From assembly GCA_001896725.1 (NCBI GenBank), contig MPPA01000010.1, positions 62,001 through 126,000 of the forward strand: a stretch of 64,000 nt of DNA, written 5' to 3'. The notes beneath the pieces are model-generated. The model was not told the DNA's origin. It did not search any database and saw only the letters and a list, made by a program, of their open reading frames with translations. The first letter of the stretch is position 1, and every line of letters starts with the position of its first letter. This stretch comes from Methanococcoides sp. EBM-47. GTDB lineage: Archaea; Halobacteriota; Methanosarcinia; Methanosarcinales; Methanosarcinaceae. This document shows positions 1 through 7,788 of this stretch, in pieces. The translations under genes and the position numbers were made by a program.

Positions 1-1964
1 GCTAGAAGATGATCTTGAAATGCAGAAAAAAGGCTTGTTATACTCACTGTTTCCATAGCGCTGCTAAACTCAAATCCCATTTTTTTCAGTAAAGAATATG
101 CAGCTTGCGTGGATATTTCTGTGGTGCTGAACTGCACATGCCCCACTTCATGCATCACGCTCAGCTTATATATATTGAAATTATCTTCAAAATCAATATA
201 TTTTTTGATCTTGGGTTCAAGGTAGATGACATTACCTGCAATAATGGGGTTCAGAAAATCGAGACCTTCCGCCAAAGGAAGAACATGTTTCGACCGGATG
301 CTGAAGTCCACACCTGAAAGGCCGACAGCATAGAATTTCAGAACATTCGCCACCTTTTTCAGGGCTACTCCGCCTTTGAGCTCTTCGATGGTATCCGTGG
401 AACTTTTGGATTTAAGGGAGAAGTAAGGTCTCCCCCTGATCGGACTTTCTTCAAAAACGCTTATCCCTTTGAAGGCCCACTCTTCAAGTTCCCTTACATC
501 CAGATCTGCCAGCAGGGACGGAGAAAAGGCAAAATAATCCACAGCTATCTTTTTATCGTTTTCGTATACCTTCAGGCCGGTGCCTGCCCATTTCCTGATC
601 TCTGCCGGGTCGATCCTTTCCACCACTTCCGGCAGGCTTTCAAAGAAAACACCTGCAAGCAGCCAATCTACTTCCAGCAGCATACGGGCTGTGGAGAATA
701 TTTCTCCGTGATAAGCAGGTGGGACCTGTTTAAAGGCAACAGCCGAGTGCCTGCAATAACCTGCACCAAGATGGGAACTTTTCTTTGCGATCTCTTTTCC
801 AATGGCCAGCCAGTCCCTGAAATTCTGATAGGTGAAGAGATGCAGCACATCAGGGGCATATCTGAAATAATTCTCTACGCATTCGGGATTTACCAGAGCT
901 AGCTCAGATCCCACATCTAATATAAATGCCCTTTGTTCCCGGGTAGTGGTCCGAACATGGCTTTCAAGCCCCTTGAAACCATGATCTATGAATGCTTTTG
1001 CAGCGTGCCTGTCTCTGGATACAAGAGCTATGCCTCTGTCTGCCCATTCTATCAATTCTCCAATATCCGTAGAACCAAGAAGCTTCGGACTTCTGTTCAC
1101 AAAGGATATAGCCATATCGATATTGAACTCAGCGATCTTCTCTGTCACAGAGAACCACTTGTTAAGATCGTTGTCACCCAGGTCAGCCATTGCAAGAGGT
1201 GAACGGTTGAACAGCGCAAGAGTTAGAGGCGCACCGAACCTGAGAATGGGATTGAGCGCATTGAGGATCAAATGCCTTCGATGCGGTTCAATGTGAGTGA
1301 AAGTTTTTCCGGAGCTGTTTATGATCTCTACTACGGTCCTCCAGTCCTTCTCCCTGATATTTTCGATAATATCAACAAATTTGCGGAATTCATCAGCGGA
1401 CAGCAGAGATAAAAGGTCTGCAAGGTGTTTAAAATAAGCCTCAGATACTCTTATATTGGAGCCTGAGAAATTGCTTCCAATAGATACCAATTCTTCAAAC
1501 TGCTCAAAAGGCCGAGATGACACAACTTTAGAAGTATTGGCAAAATAAGATATGGCAAGCCCCTTGTCCCGACCTGCTATGGATATTCCCATTTCTGTCC
1601 ACCGGTGCAAAAGAGGCAGCCCACCTTTTTCAATGATAGTACCCGATGCATCAAAGAAGCCTTCGATACACGAAATGCTCAAGAATGATGCCTTTTGTGC
1701 AAGCATTAGCCATTCTCTAAAGCCATCTTGAGGAAGCGAACGGTACACCTGAGGTGCTGCCTTCAGATAAGATCTAATTACTCTGCGACCTTTACCTGAT
1801 GTAAATTTTCCTGAGCTCAAGATGAACTTCAGATCCTGGACAGATATCTCCTTGAGATGTTCCACTACATAGGATAAATCATCCGGGTCAAGATTAGGAT
1901 AATATGATCTGACAATGTCAGTAAGTTCTTCCGGAGAAAGAGGGCTTCCGCCTGCTTCTTCCAT
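1..1964 (-). CDS. NorD/CbbO-like VWA-family protein, C-terminus beyond window
   Basis: An open frame of about 654 codons runs from an ATG at 1964 to the left edge with no stop, so the gene is cut by the window. It starts 8 nt after the stop of the NorQ-like ATPase gene, with GAGGGA just before the ATG, which fixes the start. The visible part consists of roughly 35-residue helical repeats, each with a tryptophan and a later YF or similar pair (for example REWLMLA, HRWTEMG, IEWADRG, RDWLAIG, RKWAGTG, EEWAFKG). A HEVGH motif lies near residue 605. NorD/CbbO proteins partner MoxR-type ATPases in metalloenzyme activation and carry a C-terminal von Willebrand A domain, which here would lie off the edge. 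The assignment rests on the neighbour and the repeat pattern; the VWA domain itself is not visible. Confidence 0.72.
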   Translation of the reverse strand, partial: MEEAGGSPLSPEELTDIVRSYYPNLDPDDLSYVVEHLKEISVQDLKFILSSGKFTSGKGRRVIRSYLKAAPQVYRSLPQDGFREWLMLAQKASFLSISCIEGFFDASGTIIEKGGLPLLHRWTEMGISIAGRDKGLAISYFANTSKVVSSRPFEQFEELVSIGSNFSGSNIRVSEAYFKHLADLLSLLSADEFRKFVDIIENIREKDWRTVVEIINSSGKTFTHIEPHRRHLILNALNPILRFGAPLTLALFNRSPLAMADLGDNDLNKWFSVTEKIAEFNIDMAISFVNRSPKLLGSTDIGELIEWADRGIALVSRDRHAAKAFIDHGFKGLESHVRTTTREQRAFILDVGSELALVNPECVENYFRYAPDVLHLFTYQNFRDWLAIGKEIAKKSSHLGAGYCRHSAVAFKQVPPAYHGEIFSTARMLLEVDWLLAGVFFESLPEVVERIDPAEIRKWAGTGLKVYENDKKIAVDYFAFSPSLLADLDVRELEEWAFKGISVFEESPIRGRPYFSLKSKSSTDTIEELKGGVALKKVANVLKFYAVGLSGVDFSIRSKHVLPLAEGLDFLNPIIAGNVIYLEPKIKKYIDFEDNFNIYKLSVMHEVGHVQFSTTEISTQAAYSLLKKMGFEFSSAMETVSITSLFSAFQDHLL

Positions 1965-1972
1965 TCCCTCGC

Positions 1973-2803
1973 TCACTCCATGATAGTGGAGATGATCTCA
2001 TCGATGCTTTTTTGCAGATCAGTGTTATCGGTTATAGGTCTGACCATAGCTATGCGACATGCTTCCTTTGCGTCAATGCCGTCCATTATGAGCTTACCTG
2101 CATAGATAAGCAGACGAGTACTTACACCTTCTTCAAGACCGTGTTGTTTAAAGTTTCGGATGCGATGGCCGATATCCACAAGATAGCGAGCCATTTTTTC
2201 ATTTACTCCACTTTCATGTGCAACGATCTTTATTTCAAGCTCTGTAGGAGGGTACTCGAAATCTAAAGCCACGAACCTTTGGCGTGTACTTTGTTTGAGG
2301 TCTTTTATTATGCTTTGATAACCAGGATTATAGGAAATGCTGAGCATGAACTCAGAAGGCGCCTTCAGGATCACTCCCAGCTTGTCAATGGGCATGATGC
2401 GCCGGTTGTCTGTAAGAGGGTGTATGACAACGATCGTATCCTTGCGCGCTTCCACAACTTCGTCAAGGTAGCATATGGCACCGTGTTTAACAGCTTTTGT
2501 AAGAGGGCCATCGCTCCATTCCACAGATTCCCCTTTTATCAGGAACCTTCCTATAAGATCAGTGGCTGTCAGATCCTCATGACAGGCCACAGTTATCAAA
2601 GGACGCTTTAGTATATAGGCCATGTATTCCATGAAACGGGTCTTTCCACAACCAGTCGGTCCTTTAAGGTTGACGGGTAATTTGTTCCGATAAGCTGACA
2701 TGAAAATGTCAACTTCATTTCCTACAGGTACATAATATGGCTCCTTCTCAATGAGATACTTCTCAACAGGTAACTCCTCGAATAAACTACACTTTGTAAA
2801 CAT
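1973..2803 (-). CDS. MoxR-family AAA+ ATPase, NorQ/CbbQ type
   Basis: A 276-residue AAA+ ATPase of the MoxR/NorQ/CbbQ family. The Walker A motif GPTGCGKT is at about residues 48-55 and Walker B (CYLDE) at 111-115; a sensor-1-like SYNPGY follows near 180. NorQ and CbbQ work with a VWA partner as a chaperone pair that remodels or activates metalloenzymes (nitric oxide reductase, Rubisco), and the partner gene begins 8 nt downstream here. Methanogens lack those substrates, so the target is unknown. The gene is divergent from the HAD phosphatase gene, with 124 bp between them holding both promoters. The family call is secure; the client enzyme is not. Confidence 0.88.
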
Positions 2804-2927
2804 TGGAACGATCCCACATTCTATTCGTTGTTATAATAAGGAATGGAGGATTATGGTTTATAATTAATGGTATTAAGGGATATTTCCAAACACAAGCTTT
2901 ATCCGTATTGAAACTGGATCTGTTATC

Positions 2928-3581
2928 ATGGTCAGGTCCATAATATTTGATATGGATGGAGTGTTGGTGGATTCCATGCCTTCTCATGCCGATGCCTGGA
3001 TAGCGGTTTCAAGAGAAATAGGTGCTGAAGTATCCAGGGAAGATATCTATGAGATAGAAGGTGCGAACCACATACTTGGTATACAGTGGCTTTTTGAAAA
3101 AGCAGGTAAAGTGGTCCAACCCCACTTATATGAGGAGATAAAGTGCAAAAAAGTGGAGTTCTTCAATGCCAACGCATCCATTACTCCTTTTGATGGTATG
3201 TCTGGATGTCTCAGAGACCTCAAGCAGCATTTTTCACTTGCAGTGGTCACAGGCTCTGACAGATATACAGTAACAGATATCATGAATAATTTCTTTCCAG
3301 GTGTTTTTGACACCATTGTATGTGGAGAGGATGTCCACTATGGTAAGCCCTTTCCTGACCCATATCTCAAGGCAGTGGAACTGCTCGGCATGGAAAAGGA
3401 TGAATGCATAGTAGTGGAAAACGCACCCATGGGCGTGGAATCAGCTAAAAGGGCAGGGCTTTTCTGTGTAGGTGTACCTACATATGTGCCTCCATCCAGA
3501 TTGAGTGCAGCCGACATTGTGCTGCATGATCATCCTGCGCTATTTGCATATCTGGAAAAGCTGATCCTTTCAAGCAATTAG
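2928..3581 (+). CDS. HAD-superfamily hydrolase, beta-phosphoglucomutase-like
   Basis: A 217-residue cytosolic HAD subfamily IA hydrolase. Motif I is FDMDGVLVDS at residues 7-16, with the nucleophilic aspartate and general-acid aspartate both present. Motif II is VVTGSD near residue 100, motif III is the lysine in YGKPFPDP near 140, and motif IV follows in the ECIVVENAPMG segment. A four-helix cap of the beta-phosphoglucomutase or phosphoglycolate-phosphatase type lies between motifs I and II. The substrate cannot be inferred. The gene starts at an ATG after a short AT-rich leader and is followed 47 bp later by the TPR gene, so the two may be cotranscribed. Confidence 0.85.
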   Translation: MVRSIIFDMDGVLVDSMPSHADAWIAVSREIGAEVSREDIYEIEGANHILGIQWLFEKAGKVVQPHLYEEIKCKKVEFFNANASITPFDGMSGCLRDLKQHFSLAVVTGSDRYTVTDIMNNFFPGVFDTIVCGEDVHYGKPFPDPYLKAVELLGMEKDECIVVENAPMGVESAKRAGLFCVGVPTYVPPSRLSAADIVLHDHPALFAYLEKLILSSN

Positions 3582-3628
3582 AAAGGTTTTAGTTCCTGTC
3601 ATACACAAGTATTACTGGTAGATACTTT

Positions 3629-4339
3629 ATGGACAATAAGCACAACATCTCTGATAAAGTAGAAAGCCTGAAGGAAGAATTCAAAAAAGAACCATCTTTG
3701 GAAATGATGGTACAGGTGATCGCTGCGTATCATGAGCAAGGGCTCACTGAAAGAGGCATCGGTTTTGCTGAAGCTGTATTGCTGCAAGTGGATGATAAGA
3801 AGACACGATCAATGCAAATGGGTATGATCATGGAACTTGTAGGCAGGAATGAGGAAGCGCTCACATACCTGGATAAGGCCCTGAAGATATCTCCCACTGA
3901 TCCACAGGTGCTCCATGCAAAGGGTATGATACTTGTCATAAATGGAAGTTTTGAAGATGCCGCTTTGATCTACCGCGAACTGAGGGATAACAATGCAGCA
4001 GACCTGCAGGCAATGTCAGGCATGCTCCTGTGCCTGTTTGGAGAAGGAAGATCAACTGATGCACTTGCTCTGTACCAGGAGTCCACGGGCACTCTTCCAA
4101 AAAACCCACACGAATGGCATCCGAAAGGTATGATAGATGGTATAGTTGCTGCATATTTTGAAACAACTACATCCGATGATCATGGAACGGCCCCGGAAAA
4201 TATCAAAGAAAGCTTCCGGCGCATGGAAGATATCATAGGCAACTTCGGAACTGAGGTCCGGATGTTTTACACAATGGGAGAGATCGCGGGCAGTGAAGCG
4301 TTCAGGAAAATAATGGAAAAAAAGAAGAACAAGAACTGA
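3629..4339 (+). CDS. Tetratricopeptide-repeat protein
   Basis: A 236-residue soluble protein of helical repeats. The clearest TPR unit runs from about residues 60-125 (GMIMELVGRNEEALTYLDKA followed by ISPTDPQVLHAKGM), with the usual alanine/glycine packing positions and the terminal proline. No signal peptide or membrane segment is visible. The C-terminus is very lysine-rich. TPR proteins act as protein-interaction scaffolds; no partner is evident. The gene lies close behind the HAD gene on the same strand. Confidence 0.75.
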   Translation: MDNKHNISDKVESLKEEFKKEPSLEMMVQVIAAYHEQGLTERGIGFAEAVLLQVDDKKTRSMQMGMIMELVGRNEEALTYLDKALKISPTDPQVLHAKGMILVINGSFEDAALIYRELRDNNAADLQAMSGMLLCLFGEGRSTDALALYQESTGTLPKNPHEWHPKGMIDGIVAAYFETTTSDDHGTAPENIKESFRRMEDIIGNFGTEVRMFYTMGEIAGSEAFRKIMEKKKNKN

Positions 4340-4473
4340 GCTTTACATTTAATCCGTTACCAGTGCTTCAATTTTGCATGGAAGGGGACCATTTGGTTGG
4401 GTGTACTGTATCCCTTGAGCGGACCGTAAAACGGCTCATGTTCCCAAAGTCATGAATAACGGAAGGAGATTTC

Positions 4474-4481
4474 TTTATATA
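4474..4481 (+). promoter_or_regulatory. TATA box upstream of the amber-containing ORF
   Basis: TTTATATA preceded by purine-rich GGAAGGAGA-like sequence at 4461-4469. An archaeal TATA box here predicts transcription start near 4500-4505, about 15 nt ahead of the ATG at 4517. The stretch 4340-4473 before it shows no gene. Confidence 0.4.
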
Positions 4482-4516
4482 GGCACTCTATTTTCCTTGA
4501 CCACGTAGTAAAGGAC

Positions 4517-4795
4517 ATGGTTCACTATTACACACTTGTTACAAGATATCACGGACCATGCTCAAGGATCAGCCCTTGCAGCTATGATAAAGGTATGGGA
4601 GTACGGGATGTGTACACATCTTATACATAGGAAAGACCGCTCCTATCACTTGAAAATGTAAAAAATGGGGTCATAGTGATCAAAGTATAGCTAGGAAATG
4701 CAGAGATACCTAACATAAATATGTTCCCAGAGGCTATACTGAAGGGACCCATAGACAAGATCTCAGATAATACAGATTTGCAAGTATGTCTGTAA
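4517..4795 (+). CDS. Short ORF with two in-frame amber codons (pyrrolysine candidate or pseudogene)
   Basis: The frame from the ATG at 4517 to TAA at 4793-4795 has 92 codons. It is interrupted only by TAG at 4628-4630 (codon 38) and TAG at 4688-4690 (codon 58). The conceptual product looks protein-like throughout: a Tyr/Cys-containing N-terminus (MVHYYTLVTRYHGPC), then ERPLLSLENVKNGVIVIKV between the two ambers and an acidic, Ile/Pro-containing C-terminal part. In Methanosarcinaceae, TAG can be read as pyrrolysine, so this could be a gene of about 92 residues with two Pyl positions. Both TAGs are also one transition from CAG (Gln), which would fit a decaying gene. I do not recognise the family. 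A TATA box lies about 40 bp upstream, and sfsA follows 54 bp downstream. Confidence 0.45.
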
Positions 4796-4849: not shown

Positions 4850-5599
4850 ATGAGAGAAATGGACACGATACAGGTTCCAAGACATGTGCTTGACATTCCC
4901 CTTGATGCAGAGGGTACCCTGGTTTGCAGACCCAACAGGTTTTTGGCAATAGTGGACATTGCCACTCCTTTCGGCCCAAAATGTGAAAAAGTACATATTC
5001 ATGATCCAGGGAGGCTTACGGATATATTGTACCCTGGAAACAGATTGCTTCTGAGAAAAGCCAGTGGAAAGAACAGGAAAACGGAATGGGACATCATAGC
5101 TGGCAAAGCCGGAAATGACTTCGTTCTTACTCATTCCGGATATCACAGGCAGATCTCTATGTGGGTGCTGGATAATAATATAATAGAGAGACTAGCAAAT
5201 ATAGAGAAGATCCTTCCTGAGCAGGTTTTAGGGGAAAGCAGGCTGGATTATCTGCTTGAGAGTGCAGGGCACAGAACATGGATCGAGGTAAAAGGATGCA
5301 CTTTTGCCGAAAATGGAATGGCGATGTTCCCCGATGCTCCCACGATACGCGGAAGAAGGCATGTTGAAGAACTCATAAAGGCCGTGCAAGCTGGAGATAG
5401 AGCTATGATGATTATATTGGTTTTCCGGCAGGAAGCACAATGTTTCACAGCGCATGAGAAAATAGACCCGGATTTTGCTGCCGCTTTTAAGCGGGCCCTT
5501 GAAGAAGAGGTTCAGGTCCACCCTTTATTGTTTGCTTTTGTGAAAAATGATACTTTTGGAGCCATATATTACTTAAGAGAATTGCCTCTCTGCAAATAA
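4850..5599 (+). CDS. sfsA: SfsA family DNA/RNA nuclease-like protein
   Basis: A 249-residue SfsA protein (sugar fermentation stimulation family). The conserved RPNRFLAIV N-terminal block, the HIHDPGRL motif near residue 45, the KGCTF segment near 150 and the FPDAPT(I)RGRRHVEEL block near 160 are all present. The family has an OB-like N-terminal domain and a PD-(D/E)xK-like C-terminal nuclease domain; E. coli SfsA was first noted for effects on maltose metabolism, but its archaeal role is unknown. The start may be the ATG at 4850 or the ATG two codons later, just after GAGAGAA; the second fits the family N-terminus equally well. Confidence 0.9.
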   Translation: MREMDTIQVPRHVLDIPLDAEGTLVCRPNRFLAIVDIATPFGPKCEKVHIHDPGRLTDILYPGNRLLLRKASGKNRKTEWDIIAGKAGNDFVLTHSGYHRQISMWVLDNNIIERLANIEKILPEQVLGESRLDYLLESAGHRTWIEVKGCTFAENGMAMFPDAPTIRGRRHVEELIKAVQAGDRAMMIILVFRQEAQCFTAHEKIDPDFAAAFKRALEEEVQVHPLLFAFVKNDTFGAIYYLRELPLCK

Positions 5600-5688
5600 A
5601 ACTGTATACATGGGGTTGCTTGGTTCAACAAATAATTATATATTTAATTAAATATATAATTATATTTATTTAATTGGAGAAAAATCGT

Positions 5689-7788
5689 ATGAAATTATAC
5701 CAGTCATTAAAAGTAAAAATGGCTATATTCATTGCTGTTGGTCTGTTTTTTGTATTCGGCATCTCGGCAGCATACGTAGTTGATACTGTTACTGAACACG
5801 AAAAGGATATGGCTTATGCCGAAGCCACTCAGATGGCCAGAAGCTATGCCAATGGATTCGATGCAGATATGCAATCTGATCTGTCCGTAGCAAAGACTTT
5901 TGCTACAGCTATGTCCGGATATGGATCAGCTGACACTTCAGAAGTATTGGATATGCTTGAGCGTTCTATGCTGAACAACCCGGATATCTATGGTTCATTT
6001 GTGATTTATGAGCCAAATGGCTTCAGCGGAAATGATGCTGATTATATTGGGGAAGCAGGCCATGACAGCACAGGGAGATTCAGCCCATATTGGCACAGGA
6101 AGGACGGCGTGCCGGTGCTGTCAGAAGATGTTTATGAATATGGAGAAGATCTTGCATACGATTACTATGCTACCCCAAGAAATACGCTAGCAGATGCTGT
6201 TCTGGAGCCTTATACCGAAGATGATGCACTTATGATAAGCTATGTATCGCCTATATTGAAGGATGAAAAATTTGTGGGCATAGCAGGCATTGATGTAATC
6301 CTGAACTACATCGACAGCGAAATGGACAAGGTACACATCTTTGATACAGGATATGCTTTTGTCACATCCAATACAGGTGTGTTCCTTTCACATCCTGTGA
6401 ACAAAGAATGGATAGGTATAAAAAACCTTCAAGGCCTGGGTGTTCCCCAGATGGAGCAGATGGCAAAGGACATAAGTGTGGGTAAAGGCGGGAACATACA
6501 ACTCATCGATCCGGCAACTGGCAAGGATACAGTTATGTTCTACGAACCCATAGATACCGCAGATTTCGCCCTTGTGCTGGCGGCACCCATGGATGAGATG
6601 CTTGCAAATGCTATTGAATTGCGTAATACGATCATTGTAGGGTTTGCCACGGCTATTCTCATCATGACAATTATAACTTTCGTTCTTATTTCAAGGATGA
6701 CGCATCCCCTGAAAGAAATTGTTGAGTGTACTAAAAAGATGGCTGATAACGATTTCAATGTCGATGTAAGTTACAGTTCTTCGGATGAACTGGGAGAACT
6801 TGCAGAATCCATACGTGTGATGGCATCTAACATAGGCAACAACCTGACCCAGCTGGTAGGTGAAGTACAACAAAGTGCAGCGTGGGTTGCAATGACTGCC
6901 GAACATATTTCAGCTTCTGCCGAACAAATGACAGTTACTACGACCCAGCTAGCTGATACAGTGTCCCAAATAGCCGGTGGTGCAATGTCTCAATCCACGA
7001 AGAATACTGAGATCGCAAATGCCATGGGAAATATGACATCAAATGTTCAGGATATAGCAAACAACGCGGAGAAAGCCGCAGAAACAGCCACCCATGCCAG
7101 TAACCTTATACAGGAAGTAGGTGAGCGGTCAAAGAACCTGCTTGTACAGATGGATGCAATAAAAGGAACCTCGTCCGACTCTGCGGCCGTTATCAGGCAA
7201 CTTGACACAAAATCAAGCCAGATAAACGAAATAGTCACTATGATCACAGAAATAGCAGATCAGACGAACCTGCTTGCTCTTAATGCTGCCATCGAAGCTG
7301 CAAGAGCGGGTGAACATGGGAGGGGTTTTTCAGTAGTAGCTGATGAAGTGCGCAAACTGGCTGAGGATTCCAGCGATGCAACCAGACAAATATCAGTGCT
7401 TATCAAGGACATACAGACTGGCACACGCCAGGCTGTTGAATCAGTTGAGAAAGGTACTGGCAGTGTGGCAGATGGTGCAAAGGCACTCAATAAGACAATG
7501 GAAGCTGTAAAAAACATAGTTGAAGGTGGAGGCAAAGTGGCAAGCATGGCGAAAGGAATTGCTCAGGCTGCTCAGGAACAGGCCGCCACCATCCAAGAAG
7601 TGACCGCCTCTATGGAACATGTCTCTACAATCTCGGAACAATCTGCAGTCGGCACTCAGCAGGCTGCAGCTGCAGTCCACAAACAGGCAAAGTCCATGGA
7701 TCAGCTTTATGTTTCTGCAAAAGAGCTTGCAGGTATGGCCGAAAGACTGCAGACCGCCACCCGGTGCTTCAATCTGAAGACAGCGTAA
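5689..7788 (+). CDS. Methyl-accepting chemotaxis protein with Cache sensor domain
   Basis: A membrane chemoreceptor of 699 residues from the ATG at 5689. A GGAGA sequence 8 nt upstream supports this ATG over the in-frame TTG at 5674. An N-terminal membrane segment (residues about 10-28) is followed by a periplasmic-type double Cache ligand domain, a second membrane segment near 310-330 and a HAMP domain. The cytoplasmic signalling coiled coil carries the canonical hairpin tip [20 protein letters not shown]. It would signal to CheA/CheW, but no other chemotaxis gene is in the window, so it is an orphan receptor. The AT-rich tract at 5632-5672 just upstream likely holds the promoter. Confidence 0.93.

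Follow-up and report, generated by a model that had tools for sequence, protein, structure and literature searches.

In M. acetivorans, deletion of either cysteate synthase or comDE results in coenzyme M (CoM) auxotrophy, as reported in PMC12068725. Natural loss of CoM genes and auxotrophy have been described in Methanimicrococcus and Methanolapillus (PMC11362671), and CoM auxotrophy as such is already known in gut Methanosarcinales. The genome analysed here resembles these two genera in that the cysteate-dependent CoM pathway has been lost within the Methanosarcinaceae; whereas those are gut lineages, it represents a different genus and retains a relic of the loss that can still be read. The relic lies in a reading frame interrupted by amber codons. 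Proteins containing pyrrolysine (Pyl), that is the methylamine methyltransferases and rare others, share with this frame the in-frame TAG codons and a host carrying pyl genes, whereas the frame is composed of gene remnants and its homologues have no TAG at these codons. Fujita et al. considered an amber form found in a single species as a likely pseudogene (PMC1914089). The single-species amber CobN homologue treated there is similar to the present frame, whose amber form is also seen in one species only; the CobN case additionally has a TAA, whereas the present case shows a frameshift and a deletion scar.

The window is the whole 64-kb stretch of DNA that was analysed. The methanogen genome holding it (G000) is a draft in 53 contigs with a completeness of 99.97%, and it was compared with five sister Methanomethylovorans genomes (G001-G005). 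The stretch 4517-4795 is almost certainly a pseudogene scar left by a deleted CoM gene cluster and not a Pyl protein.

The reading frame and its homology to ComE

The frame 4517-4795 on the forward strand runs from ATG to TAA over 92 codons, with no internal TAA or TGA and with two internal TAGs at codon 38 (4628) and codon 58 (4688). On the reading of the letters, it exists exactly as the first-pass annotation had claimed. Counting frames antisense to genes as well, the window contains 45 frames that start with ATG, are 92 codons or longer and carry at least one internal TAG with no TAA or TGA; 19 of the 45 have exactly two TAGs. The openness of the frame alone is therefore weak evidence for a gene.

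No family was found for the 92-residue frame in Pfam, and a pattern scan of the genome contigs with it gave no relative. Relatives surfaced only through a six-frame search of whole genomes, in which 21 of 60 related genomes gave matches, the window's own genome among them. Residues 23-92 matched the C-terminal end of ComE proteins of about 190 residues (best E-value 4.5e-17, 51% identity), and the identity of the comE part to the sister species was about 42-51%. The full-length relative in G005 (P0002) was identified as ComE, the beta subunit of sulfopyruvate decarboxylase, by TIGR03846 with 234.4 bits, above the curated cut-off of 221.5 bits, and the gene preceding it is ComD (TIGR03845). The window frame itself reached 20.1 bits against TIGR03846 (positions 121-175 of 182, E-value 4.8e-4), which is below the same cut-off. 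A search of solved structures with an intact relative indicated a TPP-enzyme family and nothing finer. In-frame stops listed for the matches in G003-G005 were set aside, as the comE genes are intact there and the stops fall at their ends or farther on. The protein-like content noticed around the TAGs is accordingly real, and its source is the ComE homology.

Anatomy of the scar

The features of the locus, and of the 449-residue gene to which one of the relics belongs, are as follows.

3629-4339, forward strand: intact TPR-like gene, the left flank, which precedes the CoM cluster in the sister genomes (blastn collinearity)
4428-4492, forward strand: relic of the 5' end of the 449-residue gene, holding the supposed TATA box (blastn with G001, alignment with G005)
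4495-4572, forward strand: relic of the 5' part of cysteate synthase, right edge approximate (blastn with G003, shuffles, translation)
4573-4795, forward strand: relic of comE, codons ~119-188 (C-terminal ~70 residues), left edge approximate (alignment, TIGR03846)
4595-4597, forward strand: 1-nt deletion, where the comE frame switches from the LAAMIK frame to the 92-codon frame (alignment with four intact comE genes)
4628-4630, forward strand: TAG at codon 38; relatives have CAG (G001), CCG (G005) and TCA (G003, G004)
4688-4690, forward strand: TAG at codon 58; relatives have CAG (G001, G003, G005) and AAG (G004)
4850-5599, forward strand: intact sfsA, the right flank, directly behind comE in G001 and G005
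L062 12085-13431, reverse strand: the 449-residue gene, present in G005 and G001

The flanks of the scar were collinear with the relatives. Blastn aligned window positions 1-4492 with G005 at 81.5% and 2886-4339 with G003 at 79%, and the segment 4428-4492 matched G001 at 80% over 66 nt (E-value 6e-10). In G001, G003, G004 and G005 the cluster comprises cysteate synthase, an ABC-type ATPase, a CobW-type GTPase, an Fe-S protein, comD and comE, and an equivalent gene set around the CoM genes is described in PMC12068725. In G001 and G005 the 449-residue gene, which showed no clear Pfam family, separates cysteate synthase from the TPR gene. In G003 it is not found at that place. On the other side of the scar, a methyl-accepting chemotaxis-type gene (window 5674-7788) stands between sfsA and a TauE-like gene, and it is absent there in G001 and G005.

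The middle relic was recognised from positions 4507-4552, which correspond to the start of the G003 cysteate synthase gene (46 nt, 84.8%, E-value 5e-8). Its score was equalled by none of 2000 shuffles against each of G003, G005 and G001, and was reached in 14 of 2000 against G004, the most distant relative. Positions 4504-4554 translate as RSKGHGSLLHTCYKISR in a frame other than that of the 92 codons, the G003 counterpart being CSKGHDSLLRTSYKTSQ. From the start of cysteate synthase to the part of comE that remains, the distance is about 4.1 kb in G003 and G005 and about 20 bases in the window. Remnants of cysteate synthase and comE, both out of frame, make up the first ~25 of the 92 codons; as the ATG lies inside cysteate-synthase DNA and out of its frame, this start codon is accidental. 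Judged from these alignments, the frame is chimeric, with pieces of two genes, and the scar as a whole is a three-part fossil. A TATA box had also been noted upstream. Its letters are present (TTTATATAGG, near 4473), and its reading as a promoter is ruled out: G005 has the coding sequence TTTATGTCGG of another gene aligned with it, so that the element is former coding DNA of the 449-residue gene.

TPP enzymes have a binding region with a GDG...N motif. The comE relic starts near codon 119, after the sites of GDGS and DNG in the G005 ComE, and the TPP-binding region is absent; at its other end it continues beyond the ancestral stop codon into DNA that was once intergenic. The segment 4573-4795 shares homology and synteny with comE of the sister Methanomethylovorans genomes, whereas of the 188 codons it retains just the final ~70, with a frameshift, two TAGs and no ComD partner. 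A remnant devoid of both the TPP-binding part and the partner ComD could not be an enzyme.

Decay of the relic and the pyrrolysine question

Alignment with the four intact comE genes revealed that the relic spans two frames, LAAMIK being followed by a 1-nt deletion near 4595. None of the aligned homologues (G001, G003, G004, G005) has TAG at either codon. Counting amino-acid columns in which the other four sequences agree, 9 of 28 were changed in the relic against 6 of 82 in intact copies (Fisher p 0.0024), while sfsA of the same genome, used as a control for branch length, was changed in 12 of 140 conserved columns. Pairwise dN/dS was 0.50 between the relic and G001, and 0.11-0.26 among intact copies. 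These statistics rest on small numbers with relatedness uncorrected, and the shortness of the relic makes the rate statistics modest. Two observations count against a pseudogene: the 65 codons past the frameshift contain no TAA or TGA in the frame of the 92 codons, and dN/dS of the relic does not reach 1. A recent loss is expected to show both, and by themselves the two observations do not exclude residual constraint. The features expected of a comE pseudogene were found together, namely synteny of comE and sfsA with a deletion, the 1-nt frameshift and the two TAGs.

The events may be placed in the following order. The ancestral arrangement would have been the TPR gene, the 449-residue gene, cysteate synthase, the ATPase, the CobW-type GTPase, the Fe-S protein, comD, comE and sfsA. 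Deletions would then have brought three pieces together: the 5' ends of the 449-residue gene and of cysteate synthase, in that order, and the last third of comE. As nothing was left to preserve, the remnant would subsequently have acquired the 1-nt deletion and the amber changes, and it presumably yields no protein product.

The first-pass annotation had proposed a Pyl protein other than a methyltransferase, with pyrrolysine inserted at codons 38 and 58 by decoding of TAG. The ability of the cell to do so was examined by profile search, in which PylS scored 375.7 bits, above the cut-off. ORFs resembling pylB, pylC and pylD follow directly behind pylS (L061 8120-11093), the assignment being made from their order and sequence and not by profile, and together these genes stand in a row at L061 6859-11093. 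The Pfam model PylC-like_N misses the PylC-like ORF of this genome, and an initial reading that pyl was absent, based on this miss, was overturned once PylS and its neighbours were found. The pyl genes had been stated to lie outside the window, which is correct: the genome carries them on a different contig. Their presence makes decoding of TAG probably possible, and read-through of the TAGs in the scar is conceivable if it is transcribed; there is no sign of selection keeping such read-through.

A real small Pyl protein is nevertheless highly improbable. It would agree with TAG being the sole type of internal stop in the open frame and with the pyl genes in the genome, and it is contradicted by the lack of any homologue with TAG there, the frameshift, the chimeric 5' end with its ~25 codons of out-of-frame remnants, the origin of the TATA box in coding DNA, the erosion of conserved columns, and the restriction of the amber form to one species, a sign of a pseudogene according to Fujita et al. 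(PMC1914089). The other possibility named at the outset, CAG-to-TAG changes in a pseudogene, is supported, the closest homologue having CAG at both sites. Sense codons in homologues at both sites together with frameshifts or raised amino-acid change had been named in advance as speaking against the Pyl protein, and sense codons at both sites, a frameshift and raised amino-acid change are what was observed. The scarcely credible case of a truncated or regulatory ComE fragment kept in function after loss of the enzyme could draw on the comE part being still recognisable at its identity to the sisters; two in-frame TAGs, a frameshift, changes hitting otherwise conserved columns and a comD partner found nowhere in the genome stand against it.

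Predicted loss of coenzyme M synthesis in the genome

The pseudogene scar is in accordance with the gene content of the whole genome. Cysteate synthase is present and comE intact in G001, G003, G004 and G005; in the window's genome no cysteate synthase was found and comE exists as the relic only. No comD was found in this genome, while four sister Methanomethylovorans genomes have it, and no ComA was found in it either. G002 gave no matches to comDE or cysteate synthase, and its TPR gene directly adjoins the end of a contig (G002:C78:27-734) with sfsA missing; since the contig ends just behind the TPR gene and sfsA is lacking, G002 is silent on the loss of the CoM cluster.

A further loss concerns MMP16 (ComF). 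The best match in the window's genome was far below the cut-off and covered positions 1-289 only; it resembles a second COG1900 homologue, which is present in sister genomes too and is probably L-aspartate semialdehyde sulfurtransferase. At the MMP16 locus (G000:C25 ~164000-164300; L077 ~6992-7313), on a contig of 243 kb, the flanks are contiguous and the gene is missing. The spacing of the flanks is ~230-320 bases there, against ~1.4 kb in G002, the closest sister genome, which retains MMP16. In G005 the flanks are ~3.1 kb apart and enclose MMP16 and one further gene. A neighbouring G005 gene, of 267 residues, is also absent from the locus in the window's genome.

An assembly artefact, in which the genes are not truly missing and a chimeric contig accounts for the relic, would find room in a draft of 53 contigs and is exceedingly unlikely, given the point and indel decay inside the relic beyond what a faulty join creates, the collinear flanks on a 441-kb contig, the completeness of 99.97%, and the absence of MMP16 from a second contiguous locus, two separate contiguous loci with losses making an assembly gap unlikely.

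The genome therefore has mcrA intact and lacks the CoM genes searched for (comD, cysteate synthase, ComA and MMP16, with comE a relic), which suggests that the organism is a predicted CoM auxotroph taking the cofactor from its surroundings. With MMP16 lost at a second locus as well, the cell most likely imports CoM. This Methanomethylovorans lineage has very probably become an obligate scavenger of CoM recently, through at least two separate losses (cysteate synthase-comDE and MMP16), one of which has left a readable scar. No report of CoM auxotrophy in Methanomethylovorans was found in the titles and abstracts of the papers that a text search brought up, and this genome may have an entry in the presence/absence table of PMC12068725.

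The analysis removes a tempting false Pyl protein and shows how such frames can originate in users of pyrrolysine, namely by amber changes in dead genes; frames of this kind would pass a gene search that tolerates TAG. Its useful result is the predicted CoM auxotrophy, a sign that a methylotrophic methanogen may depend on an outside supply of a cofactor: as its energy metabolism needs CoM and the cell is apparently unable to make it, the cofactor would have to be obtained from neighbours.
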